Notes under the pieces: generated by a model
Databases searched by the model: none
Seen by the model: the letters and a program-made list of their open reading frames with translations, nothing else
What the model was told of the DNA's origin: nothing
Assembly (NCBI GenBank): GCA_022826925.1
Contig: JAJDTX010000025.1
Location: 1-64,000 of the forward strand
DNA length: 64,000 bases
Source of the DNA: Bryobacterales bacterium
GTDB taxonomy: Bacteria > Acidobacteriota > Terriglobia > Bryobacterales > UBA6623
Direction: 5' to 3'
Shown here: positions 14,123 to 60,162 of the stretch, piece after piece
Layout: every line of letters starts with the position of its first letter
Position numbering within the stretch: position 1 is the first letter of the stretch
Program-made: the position numbers and the translations under genes

Positions 14123-15466
14123 CTATGCGGGTTCGGCCACCGGCTCCGGCCGCGCGCCTGCCAAGCGGGACTCGGTCTCTCGAGCGACCGCCGTTTCGTC
14201 CGCCTCGGAGAACCGCACCGCGAAGGCGAGGAACGAGACCAGAGTCACGACCGCGCCAAGCGTCAGCAGCGCCTGCGGCCAGCTGAGGCTCTCGGCCTTG
14301 AAGAGGAAGCCCGCGGCCACGGCACCGGCGTTCCCGCCCGCGCCGACGATGCCGGCGACGGCTCCGAGCGCCCGCTTGTTGATGAACGGCACCACCGAAT
14401 ACGTAGCGCCTTCGGACATCTGCACGCACAGGCTGAAGAGGATCAGCGTGGCGATCGCCAGCGGCAGAACGGACTGCTGCGAGAACAGCATCAGCGCGAG
14501 ACCTTCTAGGAAGAGGATTCCCGCAAGGAACCAGACGCGGCCGCGCAGGCCCCAGCGCAGGCCCCAGCGGTCTCCGACGATCCCGCCCAGAGTCCGGGCG
14601 AATATGTTCATCAGGCCGAAGAGACCGGCCACCAGTCCGGCGGTCGCCAGGCCCAGTCCGAAGTAATCGTGGAAGTACAGCGCGGCGATGTTGTTGATCG
14701 TGAGCTCGACCCCGAAGCAGGCCCCGTAGATCAGGAAGAGCGCCCAGACCCGCGTGTCAGAGCACGCCTTCAGGAACGCGCCCTCGACGGTCTTGGCGCT
14801 TGCAAGCGCTCCCGACTGTCGCAGGTCCTTGTAGCTGCCGTCCGGGGAGTCCTGGGTCAGCTTCCAGTAGAGCGCGGAGGTTCCCAGCAGGGCGAGGCCC
14901 GGAACGACCATCGCGACCCGCCATCCCATGGCCTGGTCAGCGGCGAAGGTCATCACCGCCGCGAAGAGCAGGGGCATGGCCATCTGCGTGACGCCGCCGC
15001 CAAGATTGCCCCAGCCCGCGGTCGTCGCGTTGGCCGTGCCGACGATGTTCGGCGCGAACATCACGGAGGTGTGGTACTGGGTGATGACAAAGGACGCACC
15101 GATCGCACCGATGGCGAGGCGGAAAAGCAAGAACGTCTCGTAGCTGTCCGCGAAGCCGATCGTCATCACGGGGATGGAGCCCAGTGCCAGCAGCCACGTA
15201 TAGGCCTTGCGCGGGCCGATCTTGTCGCACAGCCAGCCGATCGCGAGCCGGGCGATCACGGTGATCGCCACGGAGGCGATGATCGTGTTGCCAACCTGCT
15301 CCTTCGTCAGTCCGAGATCGTCCCGGACCACGGCCATGAGCGGCGCGATGCCAAACCACCCGAAGAAGCACAGAAAGAACGCAAACCAAGTCATGTGGAA
15401 CGTTCGCATCGGCACCGTCCTGAAGCTGAACAGCTGGATCGCGGTCGCTTTTCCTTTGAAGTCCAT
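14123..15466 (-). CDS. narK: nitrate/nitrite transporter, MFS NarK/NasA type
   Basis: The 447-residue protein has 12 predicted helices. It begins MDFKGKATAIQLFSF, with FHMTWFAFFLCFFGWFG in helix 1, as in NarK-type nitrate/nitrite porters. The family nitrate signature is present in the glycine-rich stretch NATTAGWGNLGGGVTQ, and the second signature-like GNAGAVAAG follows late. It imports nitrate for the adjacent reductase. An excellent ribosome site (AAGGAGGG) precedes ATG 15466. It is the last gene of the leftward operon after the FeS/DmsC fusion and the nitrate reductase, with 131 bases before it. Confidence 0.92.
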   Translation of the reverse strand: MDFKGKATAIQLFSFRTVPMRTFHMTWFAFFLCFFGWFGIAPLMAVVRDDLGLTKEQVGNTIIASVAITVIARLAIGWLCDKIGPRKAYTWLLALGSIPVMTIGFADSYETFLLFRLAIGAIGASFVITQYHTSVMFAPNIVGTANATTAGWGNLGGGVTQMAMPLLFAAVMTFAADQAMGWRVAMVVPGLALLGTSALYWKLTQDSPDGSYKDLRQSGALASAKTVEGAFLKACSDTRVWALFLIYGACFGVELTINNIAALYFHDYFGLGLATAGLVAGLFGLMNIFARTLGGIVGDRWGLRWGLRGRVWFLAGILFLEGLALMLFSQQSVLPLAIATLILFSLCVQMSEGATYSVVPFINKRALGAVAGIVGAGGNAGAVAAGFLFKAESLSWPQALLTLGAVVTLVSFLAFAVRFSEADETAVARETESRLAGARPEPVAEPA

Positions 15467-15597
15467 TTCTCACCCTCCTTGCCGGATGCTCCGATCCGGC
15501 TTCGACCGCGGCAGGAGCCGCGCTCGACATGTTTCCCTTCGATTGCTGGATTGCCGGACAGCCTGGTCCGGCTCGTTTCCCTAGGCGGGCAGTCTGC

Positions 15598-17811
15598 TTA
15601 GCGCACCACGCTCCTCGGGCCGCTGCGTTCAACACGGACCGCCGCTTGCTTGTAATTCGGTTCCCTAGAAATCGGGTCGAACGCGCTCTGCGTGAGCTGG
15701 TTCGAGTTCTTCTCCTCGTAGTGGAACGGCATGAACACCTGGCCGGGCGCCACGATCTCGGTGATGCGCAGTTCCAAGTGCTCGATCCTGCTGCGGGGCG
15801 ACTCGACAGTGACGAGGTCGTGCGGCCTCAGGCCGAGCCGCTGTGCGTCGGCCGGATTCATTTCCAGCCACGCTGACGGAGACATGCGTTCCAGAATCTT
15901 GACTTCCTTGGTCTTGGTTCGCGTGTGCCAGTGCTCAACCGTGCGCCCGGTGTTGAATACGAACGGATACGCCCTCGTGGGCTGCTCCGGGTAGGGCTCC
16001 CATTCGACGGCGAACAGCCGAGCCCTGCCGTCCGGGGTCTGGAAGCGGCCGTCGGCATAGAGCCGGCTTGTCGGAGGCCGCCCGTCTCCGGCGCCTCGCG
16101 CGTCGTCCGACGGGAACGGCCACTGGATCGCGTGGTGCTCGTCGAGCAGGTCGTAGCTCAAGCCGGAATAGTCGCAGAGGCGACCGTTCGAGACAGCGCG
16201 CCACTCCTGGAAAGCGTCCTCCGGCCCCTCCCAGCCGGGGAAGAGAGCGTCCCGGACGCCGAGCTCCTCCGCGACTGCGAGGAAGATGTCGAAATCCGGG
16301 CGCGCCTCGCCGGGCGGCTCGACGGCCTTGTTGACCTTGCTCACCCGGCGCTCGGAATTCGTGTAGGTGCCGGTCTTCTCGCCCCAGATCGCCGCGGGCA
16401 GGACCATGTCGGCCATCTGGGTCGTGGGCGTCGGATGGAACCCGTCCTGCACCGCGAGAAATTCGAGGTTCTCGAATCCCTGCCGCAGCACATCGACGTT
16501 CGGGAACGAGACCAGCGGATTGGTGGCGATGATCCAAAGCGCCTTGATGTCGCCCTTCACGCAAGCCTCGACGATGTCGGGATAGGCCAGGCCCCGCGCG
16601 CGCGGCAACTTGTCCGCGTCGATGCCCCACAGATGGGCCAGTTCGGATCGGTCCGCCTCGTCGGCGAAGTTCCGATAGCCCGGCATTGAAGCGGTGAACC
16701 CCGTCTCGCGCGTCCCCATGGCGTTGCACTGCCCGGTGATCGAGAATGGCGACGAGCCCGGCTTGCCGACGTTGCCGGTAATTAGCGCGAGGTTGTTGAT
16801 GACGTTGACTGTCTCGGTGCCCTTGCTCGAGTGGTTGACGCCCATGGTCCAAGCGAGGAACGGCCGCTCCGCGCGACCGTAGAGCAGCGCGGCGCGGTAG
16901 ATTTGCTCCTCGCTCAGACCCGTCACGGACGCCACGCGTTCGGGCGTGTACTTCGCGAGGTGCGCCTCGAGTTCGTCGAAGCCGGTGGTGTGGGCCTCGA
17001 TGTAGTCCTTGTCGACCAGCCCGGCCCGGATCAGGATGTGGGCCATGCCGTTGAGCAGGGCGATATCTGAGCGGGGCTTGAGCGGCAGGTACAGGTCCGC
17101 CATCCGGGCCGTCTTGCTGACGCGCGGGTCCGCGACCACCACCGTCTTGCCGGGGTTCCTCTCCAGGCGGTAGCAGAGGATCGGGTGATTGTCGGCGATG
17201 TTCGCGCCGATCAGGAAGACCGCGTCGGACTGCTCGAAGTCGTCGTACGCCCCGGGCGGTCCGTCACTGCCGAAGGACCGCTTGTAGCCCGACACCGAGC
17301 TGGCCATGCAGAGCGTCGTGTTCCCGTCGTAATTGTTCGTGCCCAAGCCCAGCTGCACCAGTTTGCCGAGCGCATAGAACTCCTCGGTCACCAGCTGCCC
17401 CGTGCTCACCACGCCCAGGGCTTGCGGCCCGTACCTCGCTTGCACCTTGCGGAACTCCTGCACGAGGGTTCCGATGGCATCGTCCCATGCGATGCGCTCG
17501 AAGCGGCCCTTCTCGTTCTTGAGCAGCGGGTGGCGCGCTCGGCTCGCGGCGGAGACGACCTCGTGTTCAGCCAGCCCCTTCGGGCATAGCTTTCCGAGGT
17601 TGACAGGGTGGTCCTCGTTGCCCCGGACAGAGACTGCCTCGCCGCCTCTCACGCCGACCTGCATGCCGCAGCCCACCGAGCAGTATCCGCAGGTGGTGGG
17701 CACCCAGCGTTCCGGGATCTTGGCGGCCGAGGTGAAGCCGTAGTCCGGGTCGCGCCCGTAGGCGTACTCTTGCTTCCGGGTGTCGAAGCCCAGCAGTCGC
17801 TTGAGACTCAT
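15598..17811 (-). CDS. nasA: assimilatory-type nitrate reductase catalytic subunit
   Basis: The 737-residue molybdopterin enzyme starts with a ferredoxin-like [4Fe-4S] site, C41-x2-C44-x3-C48 and C76 followed by Lys 78 (LCPKG). The molybdenum ligand is Cys 168 in GNTTLCMASSV, as in periplasmic and assimilatory nitrate reductases rather than the Asp of NarG. The C-terminal dinucleotide-binding domain has FNTGRTVEHWHTRTKT and LEMNPADAQRLG. There is no Tat signal, so it should act in the cytoplasm, and there is no C-terminal BFD domain. It reduces nitrate to nitrite. Its ATG overlaps the stop of the FeS/DmsC gene by four bases, so the two are translationally coupled. Confidence 0.92.
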   Translation of the reverse strand: MSLKRLLGFDTRKQEYAYGRDPDYGFTSAAKIPERWVPTTCGYCSVGCGMQVGVRGGEAVSVRGNEDHPVNLGKLCPKGLAEHEVVSAASRARHPLLKNEKGRFERIAWDDAIGTLVQEFRKVQARYGPQALGVVSTGQLVTEEFYALGKLVQLGLGTNNYDGNTTLCMASSVSGYKRSFGSDGPPGAYDDFEQSDAVFLIGANIADNHPILCYRLERNPGKTVVVADPRVSKTARMADLYLPLKPRSDIALLNGMAHILIRAGLVDKDYIEAHTTGFDELEAHLAKYTPERVASVTGLSEEQIYRAALLYGRAERPFLAWTMGVNHSSKGTETVNVINNLALITGNVGKPGSSPFSITGQCNAMGTRETGFTASMPGYRNFADEADRSELAHLWGIDADKLPRARGLAYPDIVEACVKGDIKALWIIATNPLVSFPNVDVLRQGFENLEFLAVQDGFHPTPTTQMADMVLPAAIWGEKTGTYTNSERRVSKVNKAVEPPGEARPDFDIFLAVAEELGVRDALFPGWEGPEDAFQEWRAVSNGRLCDYSGLSYDLLDEHHAIQWPFPSDDARGAGDGRPPTSRLYADGRFQTPDGRARLFAVEWEPYPEQPTRAYPFVFNTGRTVEHWHTRTKTKEVKILERMSPSAWLEMNPADAQRLGLRPHDLVTVESPRSRIEHLELRITEIVAPGQVFMPFHYEEKNSNQLTQSAFDPISREPNYKQAAVRVERSGPRSVVR

Positions 17812-19343
17812 GCCGCCGCCCTCCTCTCCAGAAACGGCATTGCCATGTTCTTGGGCACGACGCTGACGAAGAACAGGTAGCGCCCCACCAGCGCGCCGCA
17901 GGCCGCGAGCGCGAACCCCAAGCCCGCGAAGCCGACCGCGGGCAGGCCGACGGCGCCCGTGGCGAGCAACCCGAGCCGGAGCAGGAAGAAGCGCGCGAGC
18001 GGCCCGGAGAGCAGTCTCGCGGTGGCCTGCTTCTCGTATTCATCGGTGCGCACGAACCCGAAAATGCGCCAGATCTCCAGCAGTACGTGAGCCACGGCCG
18101 ACACAGCCGCGCAGGCGAGCAGGACGCTGTCATACCGCGTTCCGAGCGTTGCCACCAGTAGCGGGCCCAGCGTTGTGCCGGTCAGGAAGAAGTCGGCGAT
18201 CGTCAGCGGACTGTTCCATGCCGGGCGGCCCGGCACAAGGTAGATGCGCGAAGTCGCGTACATCGCGAAGACGCCGATCGCCGAAGCGGCGGCGCCGATC
18301 AGCGAGGCGCCCGGCAACCCTGTCAGCAGCATCGCCGCGCAAACCGATGCCGCGGCGCCGAACGAGCTCAAGGCGAGGATCTCGCGACTGAGCCACGAGG
18401 TTTTGACATTGCGGATCGCAAGCGGCGCGAAGGCGGGCCGGCCCAGATGAAGCGGCGACGCCGTGAAGGACGCCAGTCCCAGCGCGAGCGACACCAGCGC
18501 TGCCGTTCGCAGCGCCTGCGAGCCGCCCGCCAGGCTCAAGAGCCACGTCGTCGCGAAACCCGCGATCGAAAGCTGGGTCAGCACCGTCATCAGCACCAGC
18601 GAGTAGTGGGGTTTCGCCGGCTTCACGCGGTGGAAGTCGGCCTTCTCGACATCGAGCGGCAACCGCTCGGGCAGCGTGACCCGAGTTGTCGAGATCGTGT
18701 CGTCGGCGCCGGGCAGGCCCGGCGCGTTGGCCTCGTCGCGGTACTTGCTTCGCCACTCGTCGATGTCGACGATCTCGATCGCAAGTGCCTGGGAGGGGCA
18801 GGCGTCCACGCAAGCGGGGGCGTCGCCATCGGCCAAGCGCCCGTGGCACATGTCGCACTTGCCGACCACGCCGCGAGCTTCGTTAAACGTCGGGACGCTG
18901 TAGGGACAGTTCCAGATGCAGTACTCGCATCCGATGCAGGAATCGGCATCGTGCAGGACGATCCCGGTCCGGGGATCCTTGGAGTACGCCTCGGTCGGAC
19001 AGCCCGTCATGCAGGCTGGATCGAGGCAGTGGTTGCAGCCCATGGACAGGTGCATGCGCTGCGTGTGAGGGAAGACGCCTCCCTCGACCTCCCCCACCCG
19101 TCGCCAGGAAACGTCGGCCGGGTTGTTGTTCTGCTCGGCACACGCTACCTCGCAGCACTTGCAGCCGACGCATTTCGACATGTCGAAATGGAAGCGGTAC
19201 TGCTGGCCGTCCTCGAGCGGGATATCCGGAATCAACGGGGACGAGCCGACCAGCCCGCGCGCGGCCCGGGACTGCGGCGGAGCTTCTCCGAGAATCGTGA
19301 AGGGGTTCGCCGCTGTTCGCTCAGATGTGGTCAGTGTCTGCAT
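17808..19343 (-). CDS. fused four-cluster ferredoxin and DmsC-like membrane anchor
   Basis: The 511-residue protein joins a DmsB-type ferredoxin domain to a membrane domain. Four cysteine sets are visible: C58/61/64/68, C103/106/111/115, C136/139/142/146 and C163/166/178/182, enough for four [4Fe-4S] clusters. From about residue 245 there are around eight hydrophobic helices ending in FLFFVSVVPKNMAMPF, typical of DmsC quinol-oxidising anchors. There is no Tat signal, so the FeS domain should face the cytoplasm with NasA. I infer that it passes electrons from quinol to nitrate reductase, an unusual donor for an assimilatory-type enzyme. AAAGGA lies 13-14 bases before ATG 19343. Confidence 0.85.
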   Translation of the reverse strand: MQTLTTSERTAANPFTILGEAPPQSRAARGLVGSSPLIPDIPLEDGQQYRFHFDMSKCVGCKCCEVACAEQNNNPADVSWRRVGEVEGGVFPHTQRMHLSMGCNHCLDPACMTGCPTEAYSKDPRTGIVLHDADSCIGCEYCIWNCPYSVPTFNEARGVVGKCDMCHGRLADGDAPACVDACPSQALAIEIVDIDEWRSKYRDEANAPGLPGADDTISTTRVTLPERLPLDVEKADFHRVKPAKPHYSLVLMTVLTQLSIAGFATTWLLSLAGGSQALRTAALVSLALGLASFTASPLHLGRPAFAPLAIRNVKTSWLSREILALSSFGAAASVCAAMLLTGLPGASLIGAAASAIGVFAMYATSRIYLVPGRPAWNSPLTIADFFLTGTTLGPLLVATLGTRYDSVLLACAAVSAVAHVLLEIWRIFGFVRTDEYEKQATARLLSGPLARFFLLRLGLLATGAVGLPAVGFAGLGFALAACGALVGRYLFFVSVVPKNMAMPFLERRAAA

Positions 19344-19371
19344 TGAGTCTGTGCAATTCCTTTCTAGGCGG

Positions 19372-19420
19372 GGTGCGGATGCACCGGACCCTTCGCGACG
19401 GCCTCTTGCGAGGCGCCGTC
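19372..19420 (-). promoter_or_regulatory. tandem hairpins in the leader of the FeS/DmsC-nasA-narK mRNA
   Basis: Read on the minus strand, GACGGC pairs with GCCGTC (19415-19420 with 19397-19402). An inner CTC/GAG extends the stem, with a 2-base bulge and a GCAA loop. Eleven bases later GGTGC pairs with GCACC (19381-19385 with 19372-19376) around ATCC. Two hairpins close to the ribosome site are what ANTAR regulators bind in nitrate and ethanolamine leaders. The loops do not match the A1/G4 hexaloop consensus I remember, so the assignment is tentative. Confidence 0.35.
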
Positions 19421-19728
19421 CCGAACAGGGTCGGATGAGTGCAACAGGGAAGTTCCGCGCTCGGCGCTAGGTCGCGCCGTGCGATTCGGCGGCTTCGAAT
19501 CTACGCGGATCGAACCTCGCGGACAGCCGGGGTCCCGAGGCGGTGAGGCAGGGACGTCGGTGCGCCGCCCGCCTGTCTGTTCCGAAGCTAGCATGCCCGC
19601 GGCGCGATGTGAAGCAAAAATTTCTTATCGTCTGGATAACCGGCCAGCGGACCGCCGACACGTTCCTACACTGGGCTTGTAGTTTGAGATTCGCTCCCCG
19701 CCGAGCGGATTCCATGCCCTGTCAGAGT

Positions 19729-19758
19729 TCCGCCCGTTGCGGCGGAGTGACCGCGGTC
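19729..19758 (+). promoter_or_regulatory. hexaloop hairpin and palindrome in the nirBD leader
   Basis: TCCGCC (19729-19734) pairs with GGCGGA (19741-19746) around the six-base loop CGTTGC. Three bases further on GACCGCGGTC (19749-19758) is a perfect palindrome. Both lie 55-85 bases before the nirBD start. The hairpin could be an ANTAR target and the palindrome a protein operator; neither is proven by sequence. Confidence 0.35.
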
Positions 19759-19813
19759 CAGCCTAGTAGCCACGCCGCAGCAGGGGGTATCGCATCCGGA
19801 GGAGGGACTTCCC

Positions 19814-22800
19814 ATGGCGGGGGGCAGGAAGACAGCAGTGGTGATCGGAAACGGTCCCGTGGGGCACCGCTTCTGCGAGAAGCTGGTTGAGTTCGACGGC
19901 GGCCGCGACTACGGCATTGTCGCGTTCTGCGAGGAGCCCCGGCCTGCTTACGACCGAGTCCACCTCACGTCCTACTTTGACCACAGGGATCCCGCCAAGC
20001 TGGCCGTAGCGCGCATCGAGTGGTATCGCGAGAACGGAATCCAGCTCCACGTGGGAGACCGCGCCCGGCGGATCGATCGCTCGCGGCGAACGGTCATCTC
20101 GGAAGCGGGCTTGGATATCCCCTACGATTGCGTTGTCCTCGCGACCGGCTCGCGACCGTTCGTTCCGCCCATTGAGGGCATCGACAAGCGCGGGGTCTTC
20201 GTCTACCGCACGATCGAGGACCTCGACGCCATCATTGAGTACGCCAAGCAAGCCCGCAGCTGCGCGGTCATCGGCGGCGGACTTCTCGGACTAGAAGCGG
20301 CCAAGGCCGCCTACGACCTCGGGCTCGAAACCCACGTCGTCGAGTTCGCCTCGCGCCTCATGCCTCGTCAGATCGACGAGGCGGGATCGAACCTGCTCGT
20401 GCGCCAGATCGAGGCCCTAGGAGTCCGCGTGCACCTGCACAAGGCCACCCAGGGCGTGCTAGGCAACGGCCGCGTCACCGGAATGGAGTTCTCGGGCGGC
20501 GGAGGTCTCGACGTGGACATGATCATCGTCTCCGCCGGGATCCGGCCGCGTGACGAGCTGGCCCGGGACTGCGGACTGGACGTCGGGCCGCGTGGCGGCA
20601 TCGCCGTCGACGACGAGCTGCGGACCACCGATCCCGACATCTACGCGATCGGCGAGGCCGCCCTGCACCGCGGCACAATCTACGGTCTGATCGCGCCAGG
20701 CTGGGAGATGGCCGACGTAACGGCAGGCCGCCTGGCGGGCAGGGATGTGCGCTTCGAGGGCGCGAAGCTCTCGACGAAGCTGAAGCTGATGGGCGTCGAC
20801 GTTGCCAGCTTCGGCGACTACGAAGCCCCGGCCGAATCCGCTGTACCGCTGGTGGTGGACGACCCGTTCGCCGGCGTGTACAAGAAGCTGCTCTTCAGCG
20901 CCGACGGGAAAAGGCTGGTCGGAGGGGTGCTGGTTGGCGATGCCTCCGGATACTCCGAGCTGTCGGCCTTGGCCGAGTCCGACGAAGATCTGCCGTTCGA
21001 ACCCGCCCGCCTTGCGGGCGTTGGCGGCGAAGGAGCAGCCGACATTTCCAGCGGCATCGGGGACGACGCGCAGGTCTGCTTCTGCAATAACGTCACAAAG
21101 GGGGCGATCTGCTCGGCGATCCGCGAGCACGATCTGGCGACGGTCGGAGCCGTTAAGGAACACACGACGGCCGGGACGGGCTGCGGCGGATGCGTCCCGA
21201 TGGTGACCGGCCTGCTGAACGCCGAGCTCGAGGCCGCGGGCAAGGCGGTGCGGAAGAGCCTCTGCGAGCATTTCGAGTACACCCGCCAGGACCTGTTCGA
21301 AATCATCAAGGTGAAGGGGATCCGGACCTTCGAAGAGCTCATCCGGGATCACGGGCAGGGATACGGCTGCGAGATCTGCAAGCCGGCCGTGACCTCGATC
21401 CTCGCATCGCTTTGGAACGAGAGCATCACCGACCCGTCCCACCACACGCTCCAGGACACCAACGACCGGTTTCTGGCGAATATGCAGCGCGGCGGCCTCT
21501 ACAGCATCGTGCCGCGCGTGCCCGGCGGCGAGATCACTCCCGCCAAGCTGATCGCCCTCGGCACGGTGGCCAAGAAGTACGGCCTGTACACGAAGATCAC
21601 GGGCGGCCAGCGGGTCGACCTGTTCGGTGCCCAGGTGCACCAGCTGCCTTCCATCTGGGAGGAGCTGATCGAGGCGGGCTTCGAGAGCGGGCACGCCTAT
21701 GGCAAGGCGCTGCGCACGATCAAGAGTTGCGTCGGCACCACCTGGTGCCGCTACGGGGTCCAGGATTCTGTCGGGCTCGCTGTCCGCATCGAGAAGCGCT
21801 ACCGGGGCATCCGCGCGCCGCACAAGGTCAAGGGCGCGGTGTCCGGCTGCGTTCGCGAGTGCGCCGAGGCGCAATCGAAAGACATCGGCCTGGTCGCGAC
21901 CGAGACCGGATACAACCTCTTCGTCTGCGGGAACGGCGGGGCAAAGCCGCGGCACGGCGACTTGCTCGCTTCCTCCCTCGACGAGGAGACAGCGATCCGA
22001 TATATCGACCGCTTCTTCATGTACTACATCATGACGGCCGACAAGCTGACCCGCACGTCGGTCTGGATCGAGCAGCTCGAGGGTGGCATCGAGCGCATCA
22101 AGGACGTGGTCGTCCGCGACAGGCTCGGCATCTGCGATGAGCTGGAGCGGCGCATGCAGTTTCTCGTCGACAGCTACCGCTGCGAGTGGAAGGAAGTGGT
22201 GGAAGACCCCGAGCGCAGGAAGCTGTTCCGCCAGTTCGTCAACACCGACGAAACCGACTCGGGCATCGAGATCGTTCCCGAGCGCGGGCAGTCCCGGCCG
22301 GCCGATTGGCCAAAGGATGGAGTGAAGCTCGAGCAGATCAAGCTTCCCGGGGGACAGACTCTGGGCGAGTCGAGGCCAGCCGGGGAGGCGCAGCGCGGAC
22401 GCAAGCTCGAATGGGTCCGGGTTGGCAGGGTTGCCGACTTCCCGCGGAACGGAGGCGCGGCAGTGAAGGTGGGCGAGACCCAGATCGCAGTCTTCAACCT
22501 GACCGATAGGGGCCAGTGGCGGGCCTGTCAGAACATGTGCCCGCACAAGAACGCCTTCGTGCTGGCCAGGGGCATCGCAGGCAGCGCCGGGCTCTCGCCC
22601 AAGGTCACCTGCCCGCTGCACAAGAAGCCCTTTTCGCTAGACACGGGCGAATGTCTTTCGGGCGAACCCTACGCGCTGAAGGTCTTTCCCGTGCGGGTTG
22701 CAGGCGACGGGGTGTACGTGCTGATTCCCCCGGAGCGACAGCTTGACGCGCTGCTCGCAACGCCGCTGCACTTGATCCAGGCGGGAGACGCTGCAGCTGC

Positions 22801-22825
22801 ACAGGCTTGCGCGGCCTGCGCCTGA
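19814..22825 (+). CDS. nirB: NADH-dependent nitrite reductase, NirB-NirD fusion
   Basis: The 1,003-residue protein contains the whole enzyme in one chain. The N-terminal FAD/NAD domain (about 1-300) has VVIGNGPVGHRF, ATGSRPFVPPI and AVIGGGLLGLEAA. A BFD-like [2Fe-2S] site uses C422, C424, C457 and C460. The sirohaem/[4Fe-4S] ligands are C639, C645, C679 and C683. From about 865 a NirD-type Rieske domain follows with C909-P-H911 and C933-P-L-H936. It reduces nitrite to ammonium in the cytoplasm. GGAGGAGGG precedes ATG 19814. NirD is usually a separate small subunit; the fusion is seen in fungi and some bacteria. The gene is divergent from the nitrate reductase operon. Confidence 0.95.
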   Translation: MAGGRKTAVVIGNGPVGHRFCEKLVEFDGGRDYGIVAFCEEPRPAYDRVHLTSYFDHRDPAKLAVARIEWYRENGIQLHVGDRARRIDRSRRTVISEAGLDIPYDCVVLATGSRPFVPPIEGIDKRGVFVYRTIEDLDAIIEYAKQARSCAVIGGGLLGLEAAKAAYDLGLETHVVEFASRLMPRQIDEAGSNLLVRQIEALGVRVHLHKATQGVLGNGRVTGMEFSGGGGLDVDMIIVSAGIRPRDELARDCGLDVGPRGGIAVDDELRTTDPDIYAIGEAALHRGTIYGLIAPGWEMADVTAGRLAGRDVRFEGAKLSTKLKLMGVDVASFGDYEAPAESAVPLVVDDPFAGVYKKLLFSADGKRLVGGVLVGDASGYSELSALAESDEDLPFEPARLAGVGGEGAADISSGIGDDAQVCFCNNVTKGAICSAIREHDLATVGAVKEHTTAGTGCGGCVPMVTGLLNAELEAAGKAVRKSLCEHFEYTRQDLFEIIKVKGIRTFEELIRDHGQGYGCEICKPAVTSILASLWNESITDPSHHTLQDTNDRFLANMQRGGLYSIVPRVPGGEITPAKLIALGTVAKKYGLYTKITGGQRVDLFGAQVHQLPSIWEELIEAGFESGHAYGKALRTIKSCVGTTWCRYGVQDSVGLAVRIEKRYRGIRAPHKVKGAVSGCVRECAEAQSKDIGLVATETGYNLFVCGNGGAKPRHGDLLASSLDEETAIRYIDRFFMYYIMTADKLTRTSVWIEQLEGGIERIKDVVVRDRLGICDELERRMQFLVDSYRCEWKEVVEDPERRKLFRQFVNTDETDSGIEIVPERGQSRPADWPKDGVKLEQIKLPGGQTLGESRPAGEAQRGRKLEWVRVGRVADFPRNGGAAVKVGETQIAVFNLTDRGQWRACQNMCPHKNAFVLARGIAGSAGLSPKVTCPLHKKPFSLDTGECLSGEPYALKVFPVRVAGDGVYVLIPPERQLDALLATPLHLIQAGDAAAAQACAACA

Positions 22826-53450: not shown

Positions 53451-54167
53451 ATGGCCCTGCGGCGCGTGTTCGTGGACGGGATCGAGGGCGGCGCGGCAGT
53501 CGCTCGCGGTGCCCAAGCGCATCACCTCGCACGGGTCGCGCGCCTGCGGGCGGGGGAGCAGGTCGAGGTCTCTGACCAAGTGACGGCCTATCGAGCCCTC
53601 ACCGAGAGCTGCACGCCGGCAGAAGTGCGCTTCCGCATCGAAGGCGCCCTGCCCGCTGAGCCGGAATCCCCGCGCCTGAGCGTGGTGCTGTCGATCGTCA
53701 AGTTCGCCCGCTTCGAGTGGGCCGTCGAGAAGCTGACCGAGCTCGGCGTGCATTCGATCACGCCCCTGATCGCCGCTCGCAGCGACGCCAAGCTGGTACA
53801 GTCTGCCGAGAAGCGAGTCGAGCGCTGGCGGCGCATCGCACTCGAGGCCGCCCAGCAGTCCCGGCGGCTGGCCGCTCCGACAGTGGCGGTTCCGATGGCC
53901 TTCGCGGACGCTGTACAAGACTGTCGCAGCGACACGAGGCTATTGGCCGATCCGGCCGGCGCGCCCGTGGCGAGCGCCTGTTGCAGCCACGAGACGACCC
54001 TCGTTGTTGGCCCAGAGGGCGGTTGGACGCAGCAAGAGTCGCAATTAGCGCAAGAGTGCGGGTTCAAGGCCGCGAGCCTGGGACGCAACGTATTGAGGGC
54101 CGAGACAGCGGCCGTCGCGCTGGCCGCGATCTGTGCCAGCCGCTCCGGCGCCGAGAGGGGAAGATGA
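53451..54167 (+). CDS. rsmE: 16S rRNA (uracil-1498-N3)-methyltransferase
   Basis: The 238-residue product (ATG 53451; TTG 53445 is possible) has an N-terminal PUA-like domain (HHLARVARLRAGEQVEV) and a C-terminal SPOUT domain with LVVGPEGGWTQQES and the knot sequence SLGRNVLRAETAAVAL, which identify RsmE. It methylates U1498 in the ribosomal decoding centre. It is the first gene of a long operon: its stop overlaps the ATG of the DUF4202 gene by four bases, and a cytochrome operon follows with the same coupling. Confidence 0.93.
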   Translation: MALRRVFVDGIEGGAAVARGAQAHHLARVARLRAGEQVEVSDQVTAYRALTESCTPAEVRFRIEGALPAEPESPRLSVVLSIVKFARFEWAVEKLTELGVHSITPLIAARSDAKLVQSAEKRVERWRRIALEAAQQSRRLAAPTVAVPMAFADAVQDCRSDTRLLADPAGAPVASACCSHETTLVVGPEGGWTQQESQLAQECGFKAASLGRNVLRAETAAVALAAICASRSGAERGR

Positions 54168-54754
54168 GCGATCTTGACAAGGGGCGCGTGCGCCGCTGCA
54201 TGGAAATGTTCGACGCAGCCAACGCGGAGGATCCCAACCGCGAGCCCGGCGGCGAGCCCAAGGAGCTGTCATACGCGAAGCGCATGTCGGCCTGGCTGGA
54301 CCGGCTCGAGCCGAACGCCCCAGACGAAGTGCGGCTAGCGGTGCGAGCCCAACACATCCGCCGCTGGGAGATCCCGCGCAACAGCTACCCTGCGGGCAGG
54401 AGTGCCTACCTCACTTGGCGCAGGGAGCTCGGGCGCTTCCACGCCGACACCGCCGGCGCGATCATGCGCGACTGCGGCTTCGATAACAGCAGCGTGCTGC
54501 GCGTCCAATCCATCATCCGCAAGGAGCGCTTCAGGACCGACCGTTTAGCACAGCTGTTGGAGGACGTAGCGTGCTTGGTGTTCTTGGACCACTATTTCGC
54601 GCCCTTTGCTGTTGACCAAGGGGAAGACAGCATGGTCAACATCTTGCGCAAGACATGGAGGAAGATGTCCGAGGCCGGCCGCTCGGCGGCCCTCCAGATC
54701 GAATACTCGCCCGCGTGCCGAGCATTGCTCGAGAAGGCACTGGGAGACAGATGA
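54164..54754 (+). CDS. DUF4202-family protein
   Basis: The 196-residue product matches DUF4202 throughout: RCMEMFDAANAEDPNRE, ELSYAKRMSAWLDRL, RLAVRAQHIRRWEIPRNSYP, YLTWRRELGRFHADTAG and FLDHYFAPFA. The conserved His pairs (QH, FH, DH) suggest a metal-dependent HD-like fold, which is inference; no function is established. It overlaps rsmE by ATGA at the start and the cytochrome gene by ATGA at the end, so all three are co-translated. Confidence 0.88.
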   Translation: MSDLDKGRVRRCMEMFDAANAEDPNREPGGEPKELSYAKRMSAWLDRLEPNAPDEVRLAVRAQHIRRWEIPRNSYPAGRSAYLTWRRELGRFHADTAGAIMRDCGFDNSSVLRVQSIIRKERFRTDRLAQLLEDVACLVFLDHYFAPFAVDQGEDSMVNILRKTWRKMSEAGRSAALQIEYSPACRALLEKALGDR

Positions 54755-55314
54755 AGGGCAGACCCGCTGCCCGCGCGGTCCGACTGGAGCCGGCATCTGC
54801 GGCTAGGTTATCCTGTACATCCCTTTGGGGCGAATTCCTCGTGTCCCTGGCAATGCTCTCAGCCTTGCTGCTCCTAGTCGTTCAGACCGCGTCGGCGTCG
54901 GAGCAGCCGATCGGCTTTTCGCACACCGCCCACATCGAGAAAGCCAGCATGCAATGTACTGACTGCCACGAGGGCGCGACATCGCGCGACTCGGCCGGAC
55001 TGCCGTCAATTCGCAAGTGCATGCTGTGCCACCAGTTCATCGCGACGGATTTGCCCGAGGTGGTGCGCCTGAGCGAATACTGGGAGCGCAAGCACGAGGT
55101 GCCTTGGGAGCGTATCTACGGATTTGCCAAGACGGCCGCGGTACAGTTTCGCCACGCGCCGCACGCCAGGGCGGAAATCGCTTGCTCTCAATGCCACGGC
55201 GACGTGGCGTCCATGACGGTCGCGGTCAAGGCGGTGACGCACACCATGGGCTCCTGCATCCAGTGCCACCGCGACAATTCCGCGACCGACGACTGCTTGG
55301 CATGCCACTTCTAG
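54751..55314 (+). CDS. membrane-anchored pentaheme cytochrome c, ActA/QrcA-like
   Basis: I start at ATG 54751, overlapping the DUF4202 stop; GTG 54841 directly before the hydrophobic segment is an alternative. The 187-residue product has a signal anchor (FLVSLAMLSALLLLVV) and five CxxCH haem sites: CTDCH, CMLCH, CSQCH, CIQCH and CLACH. Upstream His residues in GFSHTAHIEKA and QFRHAPHARAE are placed as distal ligands of class III/c7-type cytochromes. In alternative complex III and Qrc a multihaem cytochrome of this kind accepts electrons from the MopB/FeS/NrfD core. It opens the five-gene electron-transfer module. Confidence 0.87.
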   Translation: MKGRPAARAVRLEPASAARLSCTSLWGEFLVSLAMLSALLLLVVQTASASEQPIGFSHTAHIEKASMQCTDCHEGATSRDSAGLPSIRKCMLCHQFIATDLPEVVRLSEYWERKHEVPWERIYGFAKTAAVQFRHAPHARAEIACSQCHGDVASMTVAVKAVTHTMGSCIQCHRDNSATDDCLACHF

Positions 55315-55428
55315 GCCAGCCCCTGATGCAACCGACCGTGCCAGCCAGAGTGTGCCCGGATATCCCGGCGGTTGCGCCGCGTCCGCTTCGCGGGCGCGGG
55401 CGAAGCGCCCGCGCGGAGGCTGTGTAGC

Positions 55429-57570
55429 ATGGATCGGCGCAACTTCGTCAAGCTGGTCGGGACTGCCTCTGGCGGCGCGGTTACTGGAGCTTGCGGCCGC
55501 CAAGCCGAGGAAATCATCCCTCTGCTCGTGCCCGAGGAGAGCGTCCCGGTCGGCGCGGAGCAATGGCACCCAAGCGTGTGCGGCGAGTGCTCGGCGGCCT
55601 GCGGCACGCTGGCCCGAGTGATGGCCTCCGAGCGCGAGATCGAGGTCGATGGCGAACTTGTCCGCCAGAAGATCGCAGCCGTCAAGAAGCTCGAAGGCAA
55701 CCCCCTCGATCCCGTTAGCGGCGGGCGGCTGTGCGCCCGCGGCCACGCTTCCCTGCAGTCCTTGTACAACCCGGACCGGCTGCGCGGCCCGCTGAAGCGG
55801 GTCGGCCCGCGCGCCTCCGGCCAGTTCGAAGCCGTTTCATGGGATGACGCCATCGCGGAAGCCGCCCGGGCGTTGACGGGCGTCGATCCCGACAGGATCC
55901 TGTTCCTGGCAAGAGCCCGCGAAGGCGTTCGCGCGGAGAACATCGCGCGCTTCCTAGACGCCATCGGTACCCCGCCCGCCACCAGCATCGGTGTCGGCGA
56001 CTTTGCCGCCGAGCGCGAGGCGTCCGAACGAGTGTTCGGACGAAGCGGCCTGCCTCTCTATGAGATCCAAGACTCCACCCTGGTGCTGTCGATAGGAGCG
56101 GACTTCCTAGGCGGGTGGACGTCGCCGGTTCTGTATTCGAGGCGCTACGGGCACATGCGCCAAGGGCGCCGGGAGTTGCGCGGGCGCCTGATCCACGCCG
56201 AATCCAGATTCTCGCTCACGGCCTGGAATGCCGATCGCTGGCTGCCAGTCTGGCCCGGCGGCGAACTCGCCCTGGCCTTGGCTATCGGACACGTGCTCCT
56301 AAGCGAGCAAATCGCCGACGCGCCGGCGAGCGTTGTATCGATCTTTGCTGACGTCGATCTCGAACAGGCCGCGGCGGCGTCCGGCGTTCCCGTCGAGGCA
56401 ATCCGGCAGACGGCGTCCGAACTGGCCCAAGCGTCCGCGCCCGTAGTGGTGGCCGGCGCTTCGATGGTGCGCCAGAATTCTGCCGACGCGGTTGCGGCCG
56501 CGGCCGCTCTGAACTGGCTGCTCGGCTGCGTGGGCAAGCCCGGCGGCGTGACTCCACCGACCGAACCGTTGGAAGCGCTAGCCCGGCAACCCGGCTTTTC
56601 CGGGGATTGGTCCGAGCGCTTGGAGCAAGCCGCCGTTGTGCTGGTCGATGGCGTGAATCCGGCCTACAACGCCCCCGCGAGCCAGAGCGCGCTGGCCGGA
56701 GCGGAGACTGTGATCAGCTTCTCGCCCTTCTTGGACGACACGTCCGCGTTCGCAGACCTCATCCTGCCCGACCACGATCCGCTGGAGCAGGCGCTGCTCG
56801 AGGTGCCTGCCGTATCGCCGTCGCCTTCGTTTGCAGCGGCTGGGGAGTTTGTCGCGCCACTCTACGATTCGCGACCTACCGCGACCGTCTTGTCTGAGTT
56901 GGCGGAGGCGGCGGAACGGCCGTTCGAAGAAATTACGGTAGAAGAGGCGGTGAGCACGCTGCACTCCGCGGTCGAATCTGCCGGTTCGGGAACTTCGGCG
57001 TCGGACTTCGAGGCAAAGGTCTTCCAAGACGGAGGCTGGCAGGGACAGCCCTCCCGGAAGCCGCCAGCGACGCCAGGGGCCTTGGGTACATTCGAGATAG
57101 CCTCCAAGCAGGCGGGCGTCGTATTTCAAGCGTACGAGTCGCCGCAGTTCGGCTCTGGAAGCGGCGCCAACCGCCCGTGGCTGCAAGAACTGCCCGATCC
57201 GACATCGAGCGCGCTGTGGGGGCTGCCGGTGGAGCTAGATCCGGCAACCGCTGCAAGGCTCGGCCTCGTCAACGGTGACAACGTGCGGATCCGATCCGAG
57301 CATGGCGCCTTGGAAGCCCCGGTTTACGTCAACCCTGCGGCGATTCCCGGGGTCGTGTCCATGGCACTGGGCCAAGGACACGCATCCTACGGGCGCTACG
57401 CCTCCGGGCGGGGCGCAAACCCCATGGTCGTCGTGGGCGCTGCTCATGACGAAAGGACGGGTTGCCCGGCCATGGGTCCGACGCCGATTAGCATCGAGAA
57501 GATTGCTGGGGGCGCGCGGCTAGTGCAGTTTTCGCGGCAGGATCGGGACCTGCCGCCACACAGGGTCTAG
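55429..57570 (+). CDS. MopB-like large subunit of an ACIII/Qrc-type complex
   Basis: The start is ATG 55429, with GGAG ten bases upstream and an opening MDRRNFVKLVG that is a Tat-like signal. The 713-residue product has the molybdopterin-oxidoreductase fold (VSWDDAIAEAA, VLSIGADFLGGWTSP, FLDDTSAFADLILPDHD, GDNVRIRSEHG). C51-x2-C54-x3-C58 and C102 could hold one [4Fe-4S] cluster. The usual Mo-ligand segment is not recognisable, as in the structural subunits ActB1 and QrcB, so I expect no catalytic molybdenum. It should sit on the periplasmic side and bridge the cytochrome and the ferredoxin subunit. Confidence 0.85.
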   Translation: MDRRNFVKLVGTASGGAVTGACGRQAEEIIPLLVPEESVPVGAEQWHPSVCGECSAACGTLARVMASEREIEVDGELVRQKIAAVKKLEGNPLDPVSGGRLCARGHASLQSLYNPDRLRGPLKRVGPRASGQFEAVSWDDAIAEAARALTGVDPDRILFLARAREGVRAENIARFLDAIGTPPATSIGVGDFAAEREASERVFGRSGLPLYEIQDSTLVLSIGADFLGGWTSPVLYSRRYGHMRQGRRELRGRLIHAESRFSLTAWNADRWLPVWPGGELALALAIGHVLLSEQIADAPASVVSIFADVDLEQAAAASGVPVEAIRQTASELAQASAPVVVAGASMVRQNSADAVAAAAALNWLLGCVGKPGGVTPPTEPLEALARQPGFSGDWSERLEQAAVVLVDGVNPAYNAPASQSALAGAETVISFSPFLDDTSAFADLILPDHDPLEQALLEVPAVSPSPSFAAAGEFVAPLYDSRPTATVLSELAEAAERPFEEITVEEAVSTLHSAVESAGSGTSASDFEAKVFQDGGWQGQPSRKPPATPGALGTFEIASKQAGVVFQAYESPQFGSGSGANRPWLQELPDPTSSALWGLPVELDPATAARLGLVNGDNVRIRSEHGALEAPVYVNPAAIPGVVSMALGQGHASYGRYASGRGANPMVVVGAAHDERTGCPAMGPTPISIEKIAGGARLVQFSRQDRDLPPHRV

Positions 57571-57584
57571 AACGGAGGAACTCG

Positions 57585-58313
57585 ATGGCCGAGCAAACCA
57601 CTCAGCAAGCCGAGCAAGGGGCGGAGCGGACGCCCCAGTGGGCGATGGCGATCGACCTTGACCGCTGCACGGGCTGCGAGGCGTGTGTCGTGGCATGCGC
57701 ATCGGAGAATAACGTCCCGACCGCCGGCGAGGACCAAGCGGCTATGGGCCGCACGAAGCACTGGATTCGCATCGACCGCTACTACGAGGGCGAGTTCCCG
57801 GACATAAAGGTCAAGTACCGGCCCGTGATGTGCCAGCAGTGCGACGAGGCCCCCTGCGAGCCGGTCTGCCCGGTTAACGCTACCTATCAGAACGCCGAGG
57901 GCCTCAACGTCCAGATTTACAACCGCTGTATCGGCACGCGCTATTGCGCCAACAACTGCCCCTACACGGTTCGCTTCTTCAATTGGTTCGCGCCGGAATG
58001 GGCCGCGCCGTTGAACCTGCAGCTCAACCCCGACGTTTCCATCCGCCCGGCCGGCGTCATGGAGAAATGCACGTTCTGCGCCCACAAGATCAAGCGCGCC
58101 AAGCTCGATGCAGACGCCGAAGGGCGCGAGCTGGCAGACGGCGACGCGCAGCCGGCCTGCGTGCAGTCCTGTCCGGCCGAGGCCATGGTGTTCGGCGATA
58201 TGAGCGATGCCGACAGCAAGGTCGCCAAGCAGCTCGGCAGCGGGCGCTCAGGGCAACTGCTGGAGAGCCTCGGCACCAAGCCGCGCGTGTTCTACCTGGA
58301 GAAGGCCGACTAG
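57585..58313 (+). CDS. ferredoxin subunit of the ACIII/Qrc-type complex
   Basis: ACGGAGGAA lies before ATG 57585, 15 bases after the MopB gene. The 242-residue product has four cysteine sets: C28/31/34/38, C83/86/91/95, C115/121/125 and C162/165/192/196. The third lacks its second Cys (RCIGTRYCANNC has Thr 118), so it should carry a [3Fe-4S] cluster while the others hold [4Fe-4S]. One [3Fe-4S] and three [4Fe-4S] clusters match the FeS domain of ActB in alternative complex III. Here it is a separate protein rather than fused to the MopB part. Confidence 0.88.
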   Translation: MAEQTTQQAEQGAERTPQWAMAIDLDRCTGCEACVVACASENNVPTAGEDQAAMGRTKHWIRIDRYYEGEFPDIKVKYRPVMCQQCDEAPCEPVCPVNATYQNAEGLNVQIYNRCIGTRYCANNCPYTVRFFNWFAPEWAAPLNLQLNPDVSIRPAGVMEKCTFCAHKIKRAKLDADAEGRELADGDAQPACVQSCPAEAMVFGDMSDADSKVAKQLGSGRSGQLLESLGTKPRVFYLEKAD

Positions 58314-58346
58314 CGCCACGACTCGCTCGCCCCGGCACTTGCAGCG

Positions 58347-59675
58347 ATGGACGCCATTCCGACCACAGCCCTGACTCCGGATTCGGGCCACGCAAGCGTC
58401 CGCGCCGACTTGCTCGGGCGCATGCGCGGTGCCAGCGGGCCGTATCTGGCGGGAGTCGCCGTTTGCGGCATGATCGTGGCCTGGGCCCTGTTCGCGTGGG
58501 GCTACCAGATCGTCAACGGCTTCGGCAGCACAGGCGTCCGGCGGCCGGTCTACTGGGGCTTCTACATCGTCAACTTCGTCTTCTGGATCGGCATTTCGCA
58601 CGCGGGGACGTTGATTTCCGCAATCCTGCGATTGACCGGAGCGGAGTGGCGCAAGCCCGTCACCCGCGCGGCCGAAGCGATTACCGTTTTCTGCTTGATG
58701 ATCGGCGGCCTGTTCCCCCTGATCCACATCAGCCGCCCGTGGTTCTTCTACTGGATGCTGCCCTATCCCAACGAGCGGCTGCTGTGGCCGAACTTTCGCT
58801 CTCCGCTGTTTTGGGACCTGACCGCGATCCTGACCTACCTGTCGGGCAGCGTCATCTATCTCTACCTGCCCCTGATCCCGGACTTGGCCGAGTTGGCGAA
58901 CCACAGCAAGGGAGCGAAGCGTCGCATCTATAGGGCCCTGTCGCTCGGATGGACCGGCTCGGACCGGCAGTGGCAGGCCTTGGAGCGGTCCATGAAGCTG
59001 ATGGCGGTCGTGATCCTCGCGATCGCGGTCTCGGTGCATTCAGTGGTGGCCTATGACTTCTCGATGTCGGTCATGCCGACTTGGCACAACACGATCTTCG
59101 CGCCCTATTTCGTGGTCGGCGCGATCTTCAGCGGCATCGCCGCGCTGGTGCTCGTCATGGCGGCGTTGCGCAAGATGATGGGCTTGGAGAGGTATCTTCG
59201 CGAAGTCCATTTCGTAAACCTGAGCAAGCTGCTGCTGTTGATGAGCCTGATCTGGGGCTACTTCACGTTCTCGGAGCACCTCACCACTTGGTATGGCAAC
59301 CTGCCCTCCGAGATCCGAGTGTTCCAAATCCGGGAACACGGCCTCTTCGGCATGCTCTTTTGGACAATGGTGGCCTGCAACTTCGTCATCCCGTTCGTCC
59401 TGCTGGGAATCTCGAAGTTGCGCAGCATCCCGACCATAGCCGTCAGCAGCGCGGCGGTGCTCGTCGGGATGTGGCTGGAGCGGTTCCTGATCGTGGTTCC
59501 GACTCTGTCAACCCCTCCGCTAGCCGCGGCTTGGGGCAGCTACGCGCCGAGCTGGATCGAGCTCTCGATCACAGCGGGGACGTTCGCAGCGATGGTGCTG
59601 CTGTACCTGCTTTTCGTCAAGGCGTTTCCGATCATCGCCATCTGGGAGTACGACGATGGAGTACGTGCACGCTGA
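58347..59675 (+). CDS. NrfD/ActC-like quinol-binding membrane subunit
   Basis: The 442-residue protein has about ten transmembrane helices. Family marks are RPVYWGFYIVNFVFWIGISH, AGTLISAILRL, GGLFPLIHISRPWFFYWMLP, SVHSVVAYDFS and TFSEHLTTWYGN, typical of the ActC/QrcD branch of NrfD proteins. It binds and oxidises quinol in the membrane, and acidic residues in its helices may form proton paths. The gene follows the ferredoxin gene by 33 bases and overlaps the DUF3341 gene by 20 bases. Confidence 0.9.
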   Translation: MDAIPTTALTPDSGHASVRADLLGRMRGASGPYLAGVAVCGMIVAWALFAWGYQIVNGFGSTGVRRPVYWGFYIVNFVFWIGISHAGTLISAILRLTGAEWRKPVTRAAEAITVFCLMIGGLFPLIHISRPWFFYWMLPYPNERLLWPNFRSPLFWDLTAILTYLSGSVIYLYLPLIPDLAELANHSKGAKRRIYRALSLGWTGSDRQWQALERSMKLMAVVILAIAVSVHSVVAYDFSMSVMPTWHNTIFAPYFVVGAIFSGIAALVLVMAALRKMMGLERYLREVHFVNLSKLLLLMSLIWGYFTFSEHLTTWYGNLPSEIRVFQIREHGLFGMLFWTMVACNFVIPFVLLGISKLRSIPTIAVSSAAVLVGMWLERFLIVVPTLSTPPLAAAWGSYAPSWIELSITAGTFAAMVLLYLLFVKAFPIIAIWEYDDGVRAR

Positions 59676-60162
59676 GTTCTCACGGGGGGAGGACGCCGCG
59701 GCGGCGATCCGCGATCTGGCGGCGGCGGGAATCTCCAAGAGCGCGATGGAGCTTTACTCGTTGCGACCGGTGGAGTTGGACCCCGCACCGCTGGCCAGGC
59801 GCAGCCGCATGTCGCTGGCAGCCGTGCTCTCGGCGATCACAGTGGGCGGCGGAGCCACCGCGCTGGTCTACTGGGCGCAGCGCGACTACCCGCTGATTAC
59901 TGGCGGAATGCCGATCAATTCAGGCTGGGCCACCGGCGTGGTGACATTCGAGACAACCATGGCCGGGGCGGTGATGGGGATTTTCGCAGCCCTGCTGTGG
60001 GAGTCTGGATTGCTCCGCGGGCGCAAGCGCGTTCCGGTGCCGGTCCTGCCGGACCGCGGCGTGGTCCTGCAAGTTGCGGGGGCGCCGGACACCGCGGGAC
60101 TTGCAGAGTCACTCCGTGCTGCCGGGGCCGTGGCGGTGGAGGTCGTCGGAGCCGAGGACTGA
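59656..60162 (+). CDS. DUF3341/ActD-like subunit
   Basis: The 168-residue product starts inside the end of the NrfD gene (20-base overlap). It has an N-terminal soluble ferredoxin-like alpha/beta part (AEFSRGEDAAAAIRDLAAAG), two transmembrane helices (about 52-72 and 94-114, with FETTMAGAVMGIFAALL) and a C-terminal part ending AVAVEVVGAED, the plan of DUF3341/ActD. In alternative complex III this subunit packs against the membrane core. The usual next genes, a mono-haem cytochrome ActE and a second NrfD-like ActF, are absent. Confidence 0.85.
   Translation: MEYVHAEFSRGEDAAAAIRDLAAAGISKSAMELYSLRPVELDPAPLARRSRMSLAAVLSAITVGGGATALVYWAQRDYPLITGGMPINSGWATGVVTFETTMAGAVMGIFAALLWESGLLRGRKRVPVPVLPDRGVVLQVAGAPDTAGLAESLRAAGAVAVEVVGAED

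Follow-up and report, generated by a model that had tools for sequence, protein, structure and literature searches.

Five consecutive genes that quite probably encode a minimal alternative complex III (ACIII) lie on the plus strand at positions 54,751-60,162 of the window, a term used for the whole analysed stretch of DNA, which covers 64,000 of the 70,660 bases of contig C95. The source genome (5.97 Mb, 93% complete, 196 contigs) is an acidobacterial metagenome-assembled genome (MAG) of Bryobacterales type, and the MopB protein of the set is 90–94% identical to those of named relatives, Bryobacterales/Terriglobia MAGs; genus and family denote here the group codes of the sequence database used.

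The products of the five open reading frames (ORFs) are a cytochrome with five hemes, a protein resembling MopB, a ferredoxin, a single NrfD protein, and a DUF3341 protein, as reported in a preliminary description of this DNA and confirmed by the ORFs and by Pfam; the ferredoxin is of the four-cluster kind. The actA-like gene (54751..55314) specifies a cytochrome c of 187 aa from this start, with five CXXCH motifs and an N-terminal hydrophobic stretch, which has a c7/cIII cytochrome match in Pfam and whose best PDB matches are ActA chains (8k9e_A, 1.6e-21; 6f0k_A, 2e-19; 6lod_A; 6btm_A); its start codon is uncertain because the stop-to-stop frames of the relatives L069, L070, and L080 span only 161 aa. 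The actB1-like gene (55429..57570) encodes a MopB protein of 713 aa, starting from the Met at 55,429, two codons ahead of the RR of a twin-arginine signal, with a conserved Cys after the signal, a four-Cys FS0 motif, and the Pfam domains Molybdopterin (molybdopterin oxidoreductase) and Molybdop_Fe4S4. The actB2-like ferredoxin gene (57585..58313; Pfam Fer4) carries four cluster motifs, the third being CIGTRYC, and is followed by the actC-like gene (58347..59675) for an NrfD membrane subunit of 442 aa (Pfam NrfD, 3e-30). The last gene, actD (59656..60162), shares its first 20 bases with the NrfD gene and encodes 168 aa matching PF11821 (1.3e-18; 67.6 bits against a cut-off of 25.7), ActD being the current Pfam name of DUF3341. 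No cytochrome gene directly follows actD in the window, and no ActE, ActF, or oxidase gene adjoins the five; this combination of a split MopB and iron-sulfur (FeS) pair with DUF3341 and with these absences, pointed out in the preliminary description, is confirmed by profile searches.

The five-gene arrangement is a real, conserved operon and not the result of chance. When species genomes were scanned with a MopB alignment of 15 rows, 79 loci were retained, of which 41 (two MAGs contributing two each) have at least 43% identity in the scan list and are termed Bryobacterales-type. The five-gene order, for which a genome search had been suggested, is intact in 34 of these 41 loci, while the other seven run into a contig boundary and keep the remainder in order; it is found in all ten genus-mates (L067–L074, L080, L117), and the examined locus DNA of the 41 loci holds no second NrfD gene. 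Across the order, 51 of 257 genomes gave a MopB match at 1e-40; judged by open-frame length, 41 genomes carry the split form, 13 the fused one (>880 aa), and 3 both (G002, G143, G147), the fused form being probably under-counted by the MopB query used. ActD occurs in 284 of 396 sampled genomes of the phylum and as a single gene in the window genome. Over the five genes, dN/dS is 0.03–0.24 against the two nearest of four relatives (protein identity 87–99%) and 0.03–0.30 against all four, ratios that are rough for the two far ones, as dS exceeds 1 in 9 of 10 comparisons with them; these values indicate that purifying selection acts on all five genes, and a degenerate relic is unlikely given the range of 0.03–0.30.

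The membrane subunit and its DUF3341 partner are assigned by their sequences to ActC and ActD, respectively. The top PDB match of the NrfD protein is the ActC of R. marinus (6f0k_C, 320 bits), with ActF (6f0k_F) at 68 bits, and the ferredoxin aligns to the C-terminal domain of R. marinus ActB (6f0k_B 795-1024) with 267 bits. A profile seeded with the window NrfD scores the ActC of split clusters at 457–641 bits (63 of 69 loci; the other six are cut), whereas QrcD rows, detected in 12 of the 14 Qrc-type loci, reach 29–66 bits, and ActD finds no match in the 14 Qrc-type loci (L196–L209). The MopB subunit alone is not decisive, since in a single-sequence search ArrA (113 bits) and PsrA (99 bits) outscore ActB (66 bits). 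In NCBIfam the best names are QrcA (81.8 bits against a cut-off of 180), QrcB (254.3 against 440), and QrcC (248.1 against 400), all under the curated cut-offs, and the NrfD protein has no Qrc-named match, the presence of a QrcD model in that library being unchecked. A confusion between Act and Qrc is therefore understandable and, because the nearest names for three subunits are those of Qrc, even though below cut-off, annotators should be warned that split ACIII may be miscalled as Qrc. Membership in Qrc itself is rejected by the NCBIfam cut-offs, the NrfD type, and the trees.

Among the other loci compared, L103, L105, L106, and L193 also have five-gene clusters, with 3.8–7.5 kb after actD lacking a cytochrome or a second NrfD, and L102, L210, L211, and L212 have an ActE-like gene and no ActF (1.8–2.0 kb examined past actD for the last three). 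Split ActB occurs together with ActF in L104, L110, L112, L114, and L237–L250 (L113 is cut after actD), and fused ActB with ActF in L118, L180–L191, L194, L195, L213–L215, L236, L252, L254, and L255. Two of these loci are unusual in their order: in L114, from a Chloroflexi MAG with split ActB, an ActF-like NrfD gene stands between the ferredoxin and ActC genes, and in L241, of the gamma-class, the act genes are preceded by a pair of MopB frames and by a first ferredoxin frame that is short, resembling a partial tandem copy.

For the trees, the Bryobacterales were represented by the window, 4 genus-mates, and 18 others from the 41 loci, and Qrc by 12 of the 14 loci, L199 and L207 being omitted as no NrfD was found in the examined stretch; the Qrc-type rows were chosen by the QrcB profile, with only L196 scoring very high (970 bits) and L205 below cut-off (421 against 440). 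The omissions comprise the split loci with ActF L238, L241, L244, L245, and L250, the fused L182 and L185–L187, the cut L253 and L111, and L192, which lies on the contig of L088; L120, L121, L123–L126, and L128–L145 were excluded as other MopB enzymes or fragments, and none of the tree rows is an iron oxidiser by name. In the MopB tree (78 rows, LG+C20 PMSF, quick run), the 12 Qrc-type rows form one clade (support 99), as do the 63 Act rows (99) and the 23 Bryobacterales rows (100), and fused ActB is a single clade (94) nested among split rows (96). In the NrfD tree (95 rows), Qrc-type rows stand far away (100), the branch between Qrc-type and Act rows having a Shimodaira–Hasegawa-like likelihood ratio support (SH-aLRT) of 99 both here and in the MopB tree and of 100 in the joined tree; Act and ActF fall together (99), the 17 ActF rows are grouped (95), and the window lies inside an ActF-less clade of 27 rows (99). 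ActF arises from a polytomy in this tree, which favours neither its gain nor its loss over the other.

The joined tree of five subunits (75 rows, 1,648 columns, LG+G4, rooted on Qrc, with NrfD and ActD blank for the Qrc rows) recovers the 63 Act rows (100) and, within them, a clade (99) of 28 rows that have a split ActB and lack ActF, with the Nitrospirales locus L102 at its base; the 28-row clade including L102 is supported in the joined tree only, and the 27-row clade (99) is also found inside it. A clade of 31 rows (100) unites the fused and split-plus-ActF rows except L114 and includes L113, cut before any ActF, while L210–L212, with no ActF in the examined stretch, fall outside the 28-row clade. 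In approximately unbiased (AU) tests, a single clade of all 31 ActF-less rows is not rejected (p-AU 0.165), yet it is not recovered; a single clade of all split-ActB rows is near rejection (p-AU 0.056), and a tree that keeps Bryobacterales and Qrc together meets with weak rejection (p-AU 0.028). The trees thus place the five genes inside ACIII, within the split-ActB, ActF-less clade.

Conserved residues complete this picture. The FS0 residues Cys49, Cys52, Cys56, and Cys100 of MopB (counting the R of RRNF as 1) are kept in 45 of 45 split-ActB rows; the four-Cys motif is kept in 11 of 18 fused rows (lost in 7), and Qrc-type rows keep 6 to 9 of 12 depending on the position. What we take to be the molybdenum-ligand Cys of ArrA and PsrA aligns with Asp189 or Phe190 of the window MopB. 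In ActB, a residue other than Cys at the third ferredoxin motif implies a [3Fe-4S] cluster; this position is Thr in 53 of 63 Act rows (window included), Ser in 8, and Val in 2, and Cys in all 12 Qrc-type rows. QrcC is likewise described with a [3Fe-4S] cluster in a passage of PMC8076601, so the contrast is a mark of lineage and not a proof of cluster type. With the residue list of ActC taken from a table in the same paper (R. marinus numbering), all 63 Act rows, that of the window among them, retain the four quinone-site residues H139, S164, D169, and D253. In the window, the inner half-channel has 11 of its 13 residues and the outer one 5 of its 6 (R196, D197, and Y323 replaced, the other 16 kept). 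The conserved membrane Glu of ActD is kept in 62 of 63 rows. Bryobacterales ActC in general shows a change of the inner half-channel R196 and of its neighbour D197 (23/23 and 22/23) while the remaining channel is kept.

The product of actA-actB1-actB2-actC-actD is in good probability an electrogenic quinol:cytochrome c oxidoreductase, filed as ACIII despite the missing ActE and ActF because neither is universal in published members. For its cofactors, direction, pumping, stoichiometry, and acceptor we infer the following scheme: quinol would bind ActC close to the outer membrane face, and electrons would pass to the [3Fe-4S] cluster of ActB2, to the pentaheme ActA, and to a soluble periplasmic cytochrome c, which would deliver them to the cytochrome c oxidase of the genome. 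ActB1 would act as a scaffold that has probably lost its molybdenum chemistry and retained one extra [4Fe-4S] motif; protons may be translocated through the two half-channels of ActC and the glutamate of ActD, and without ActF the complex would have one NrfD translocation unit rather than two.

ActF is missing beyond the locus, since PF03916 (NrfD) finds one gene in the whole window genome (93% complete, 196 contigs); the genome of L102 (G652) also has one NrfD match genome-wide, and the ActF-less trait is thus genome-wide for these two genomes and given at locus level for the genus-mates. In the genomes G656, G658, and G659 (those of L106, L105, and L103), which carry 2 to 4 genes for NrfD proteins, a further act cluster includes ActF, which could therefore be shared. 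ActE is found neither at the window nor at the genus-mate loci, and no clear copy occurs elsewhere in the genome, further weak cytochrome matches being unexamined. A small cytochrome c gene stands right after actD in 23 of 24 complete loci outside the genus, and its product has a single CXXCH, except in L088 and L089, where there are two; the remaining locus, L084, lies at a contig end just past actD, and the cut locus L108 also has the gene. Such a gene is absent in all ten genus-mates and in the window, and its loss is the simplest account because the genus is nested in a cytochrome-bearing group (SH-aLRT 99–100, 10-row and 5-row clades). The post-actD cytochrome (L075:14729-15073 and 23 other loci) is small, of Sec type, and unlike the ActE-type gene of L102, L104, and L210–L212.

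Another small cytochrome c, at C89:102,581 of the window genome, has a counterpart in all 11 genomes of the genus and is a plausible acceptor of the complex. Its interpretation as a relocated ActE is rejected, as it belongs to another family and its orthologue (58–62%) co-occurs with the actD-side cytochrome in three of four sister-genus genomes (G002, G003, and G005; not G007, 74% complete). The genome has one COX1 gene, on another contig (C49) together with COX2 and COX3, and no bd oxidase was found in it; a soluble cytochrome c as donor fits because COX2 has a CuA-type motif, CSELCGLGH, and no CXXCH. A cluster of Rieske, cytochrome b N-half, and C-half genes with an eight-CXXCH cytochrome lies on C147, so the complex probably works beside a bc-type complex. 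In addition to this cluster, a cytochrome b gene adjoins one for an eight-CXXCH protein on C8 (L178:7519-10504).

These genome data bear on the best surviving alternative, in which the complex is an ACIII that passes electrons from the bare pentaheme ActA to an acceptor other than oxygen, for example a multiheme cytochrome, the monoheme cytochrome having been lost as its branch was unused. The missing post-actD cytochrome throughout the genus, the eight-CXXCH cytochromes, and an argument in PMC9386147, in the portion cited, that act clusters distant from oxidases serve other acceptors all agree with it; the genome, however, encodes a cytochrome c oxidase, and this alternative appears unlikely.

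Less probable, and indeed improbable, is a distinct class of quinol oxidoreductases that would stand between ACIII and Qrc and use an electron acceptor of its own. It can draw on the MopB/FeS split, as in Qrc, on the NCBIfam names, on the lack of a linked oxidase, and on the clade of ActF-less rows (27 rows at 99 in the NrfD tree, 27 and 28 rows at 99 in the joined tree). Against it, the NrfD and ActD proteins are of Act type and the Qrc-type rows are separate. The position midway between ACIII and Qrc given in the preliminary description does not hold, as the window is on the Act side of a branch with support of 99–100 in three trees and the union of Bryobacterales with Qrc is itself weakly rejected. 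The split ActB is no special tie to Qrc either, as split actB1/actB2 genes are described in iron oxidisers (PMC4643136) and fused ActB is nested in the split form. Nor is the class unrecognised: a passage of PMC12342949 already presents as ACIII the actAB1B2CDE sets, devoid of ActF and ActG, of 47 genomes of Nitrospirales, and L102 joins the clade of the window. The tree check that had been proposed for a separate class did yield rows with this gene order in a supported clade, but one lying within ACIII, and an independent third class as stated is rejected.

Least probable of all is a Qrc-like quinone reductase running in reverse, from periplasmic cytochrome electrons to the quinone pool, a role to which the common architecture of cytochrome, MopB, FeS, and NrfD, the suggestion, called "highly speculative" by its authors, that ACIII may lead to quinones in iron oxidisers (PMC4643136, in part), and the assignment of a Bryobacteraceae NrfD protein to QrcABCD (PMC10564751, in part) would lend themselves, but which the NrfD profile scores and the presence of DUF3341 oppose; that assignment deserves a second look because the names closest to split ACIII are those of Qrc.

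Several points weigh against the five genes forming a minimal ACIII that feeds an oxidase. The MopB tree alone puts the other ActF-less rows in a basal polytomy, the NrfD tree gave long-branch warnings among ActF rows, and the joined tree ran without a mixture model. No oxidase is linked to the five genes, and given the Rieske/cytochrome b cluster and the second cytochrome b, electrons may reach oxygen chiefly by other ways than this complex. All 23 Bryobacterales rows of ActC have another residue in place of R196 and of Y323, and at position 197 just one of the 23 has Asp, while nine have Glu. In Flavobacterium the actE mutant grows more slowly, and ActE may be needed if ActA has five hemes and not six, as remarked in a part of PMC8552683; the window ActA has five hemes, the case which that remark concerns.

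A wider proposal, tentative and on balance doubtful, is that the ActF-less, split-ActB complexes represent a deep ACIII branch that keeps a pre-ActF state, a one-pump form with half the translocation units working beside the bc complex in bc-bearing bacteria, of which the genus of the window would have the smallest working set, with five subunits.

The operon is preceded by rsmE and by a DUF4202 gene (54164..54754, plus strand; PF13875, 3e-69), which overlaps the rsmE end and the annotated cytochrome start and is counted here as a genus neighbour rather than as a subunit. Of the 10 genus-mate loci, 9 (all except L071) contain a DUF4202 gene, which adjoins the act cluster in 8 and lies about 6 kb upstream of the cytochrome in L073; Bryobacterales-type loci outside the genus give no profile match. 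Downstream there are genes for a TIM-barrel protein and a DUF1648 protein and then, on the opposite strand, DUF1552 and DUF1588/DUF1585 genes. Elsewhere in the window (14126-22822) a nitrate assimilation set comprises a NarK-like transporter (slightly below cut-off), a NasA/Fdh-like MopB protein, DmsB-like and DmsC-like domains joined in one protein, and a NirB-NirD fusion in one ORF of 1,003 aa.

In comparison with the known systems, described here from passages of the papers cited, the variation in subunits is already on record: ActF is counted among six conserved ACIII subunits and, with the similar ActC, suggested as a proton pump of ACIII (PMC5928083), ActC is the only NrfD of the Act complex in some species (PMC3543383), ActB may be fused or separate and act clusters may lie apart from oxidases (PMC9386147), and complexes without ActE are reported, aa3 activity being unimpaired by actE deletion in Flavobacterium (PMC8552683). 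In the Bryobacteraceae MAG CO124 the bc complex, ACIII, and caa3 oxidase are up under oxic conditions, the ACIII type being unstated in the passage cited (PMC10564751), and a search of open-licence PMC papers turned up none that names an actAB1B2CD set of five genes in Bryobacterales. Qrc (QrcABCD) resembles the window in having separate genes for cytochrome, MopB, FeS, and NrfD and in partly keeping the four-Cys motif; it differs in the NrfD lineage, in the lack of DUF3341, and in the Cys of motif III, and the window proteins stay under its NCBIfam cut-offs. Canonical ACIII, known from R. marinus (6F0K), F. johnsoniae (6BTM), and R. castenholzii (6LOD), shares homologues of ActA, ActC, and ActD, the ActB2 domain, and the quinone-site residues; unlike the window, it has a fused ActB as well as ActE and ActF. 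The complex of iron oxidisers, actAB1B2CDEF of an "ACIII-Qrc clade" (PMC4643136), has the ActB1/ActB2 split, the Cys motif in ActB1, ActC, and ActD in common with the window; ActE and ActF are present in it, and in the joined tree the split rows that have ActF fall together with canonical ACIII of the fused kind. The Nitrospirales complex, of which L102 is such a locus, is likewise made of split ActB, a single NrfD (ActC), and ActD, without ActF; in contrast to the window, the genes of L102 are followed by one of ActE type, monoheme, and by two that are CydA-like (CydAA' in PMC12342949). The window complex is thus a subtractive variant of a published variant and not a new class; as a natural five-subunit ACIII without ActF and without a monoheme subunit, it would serve to show which subunits are indispensable and whether a single NrfD subunit is enough for coupling.

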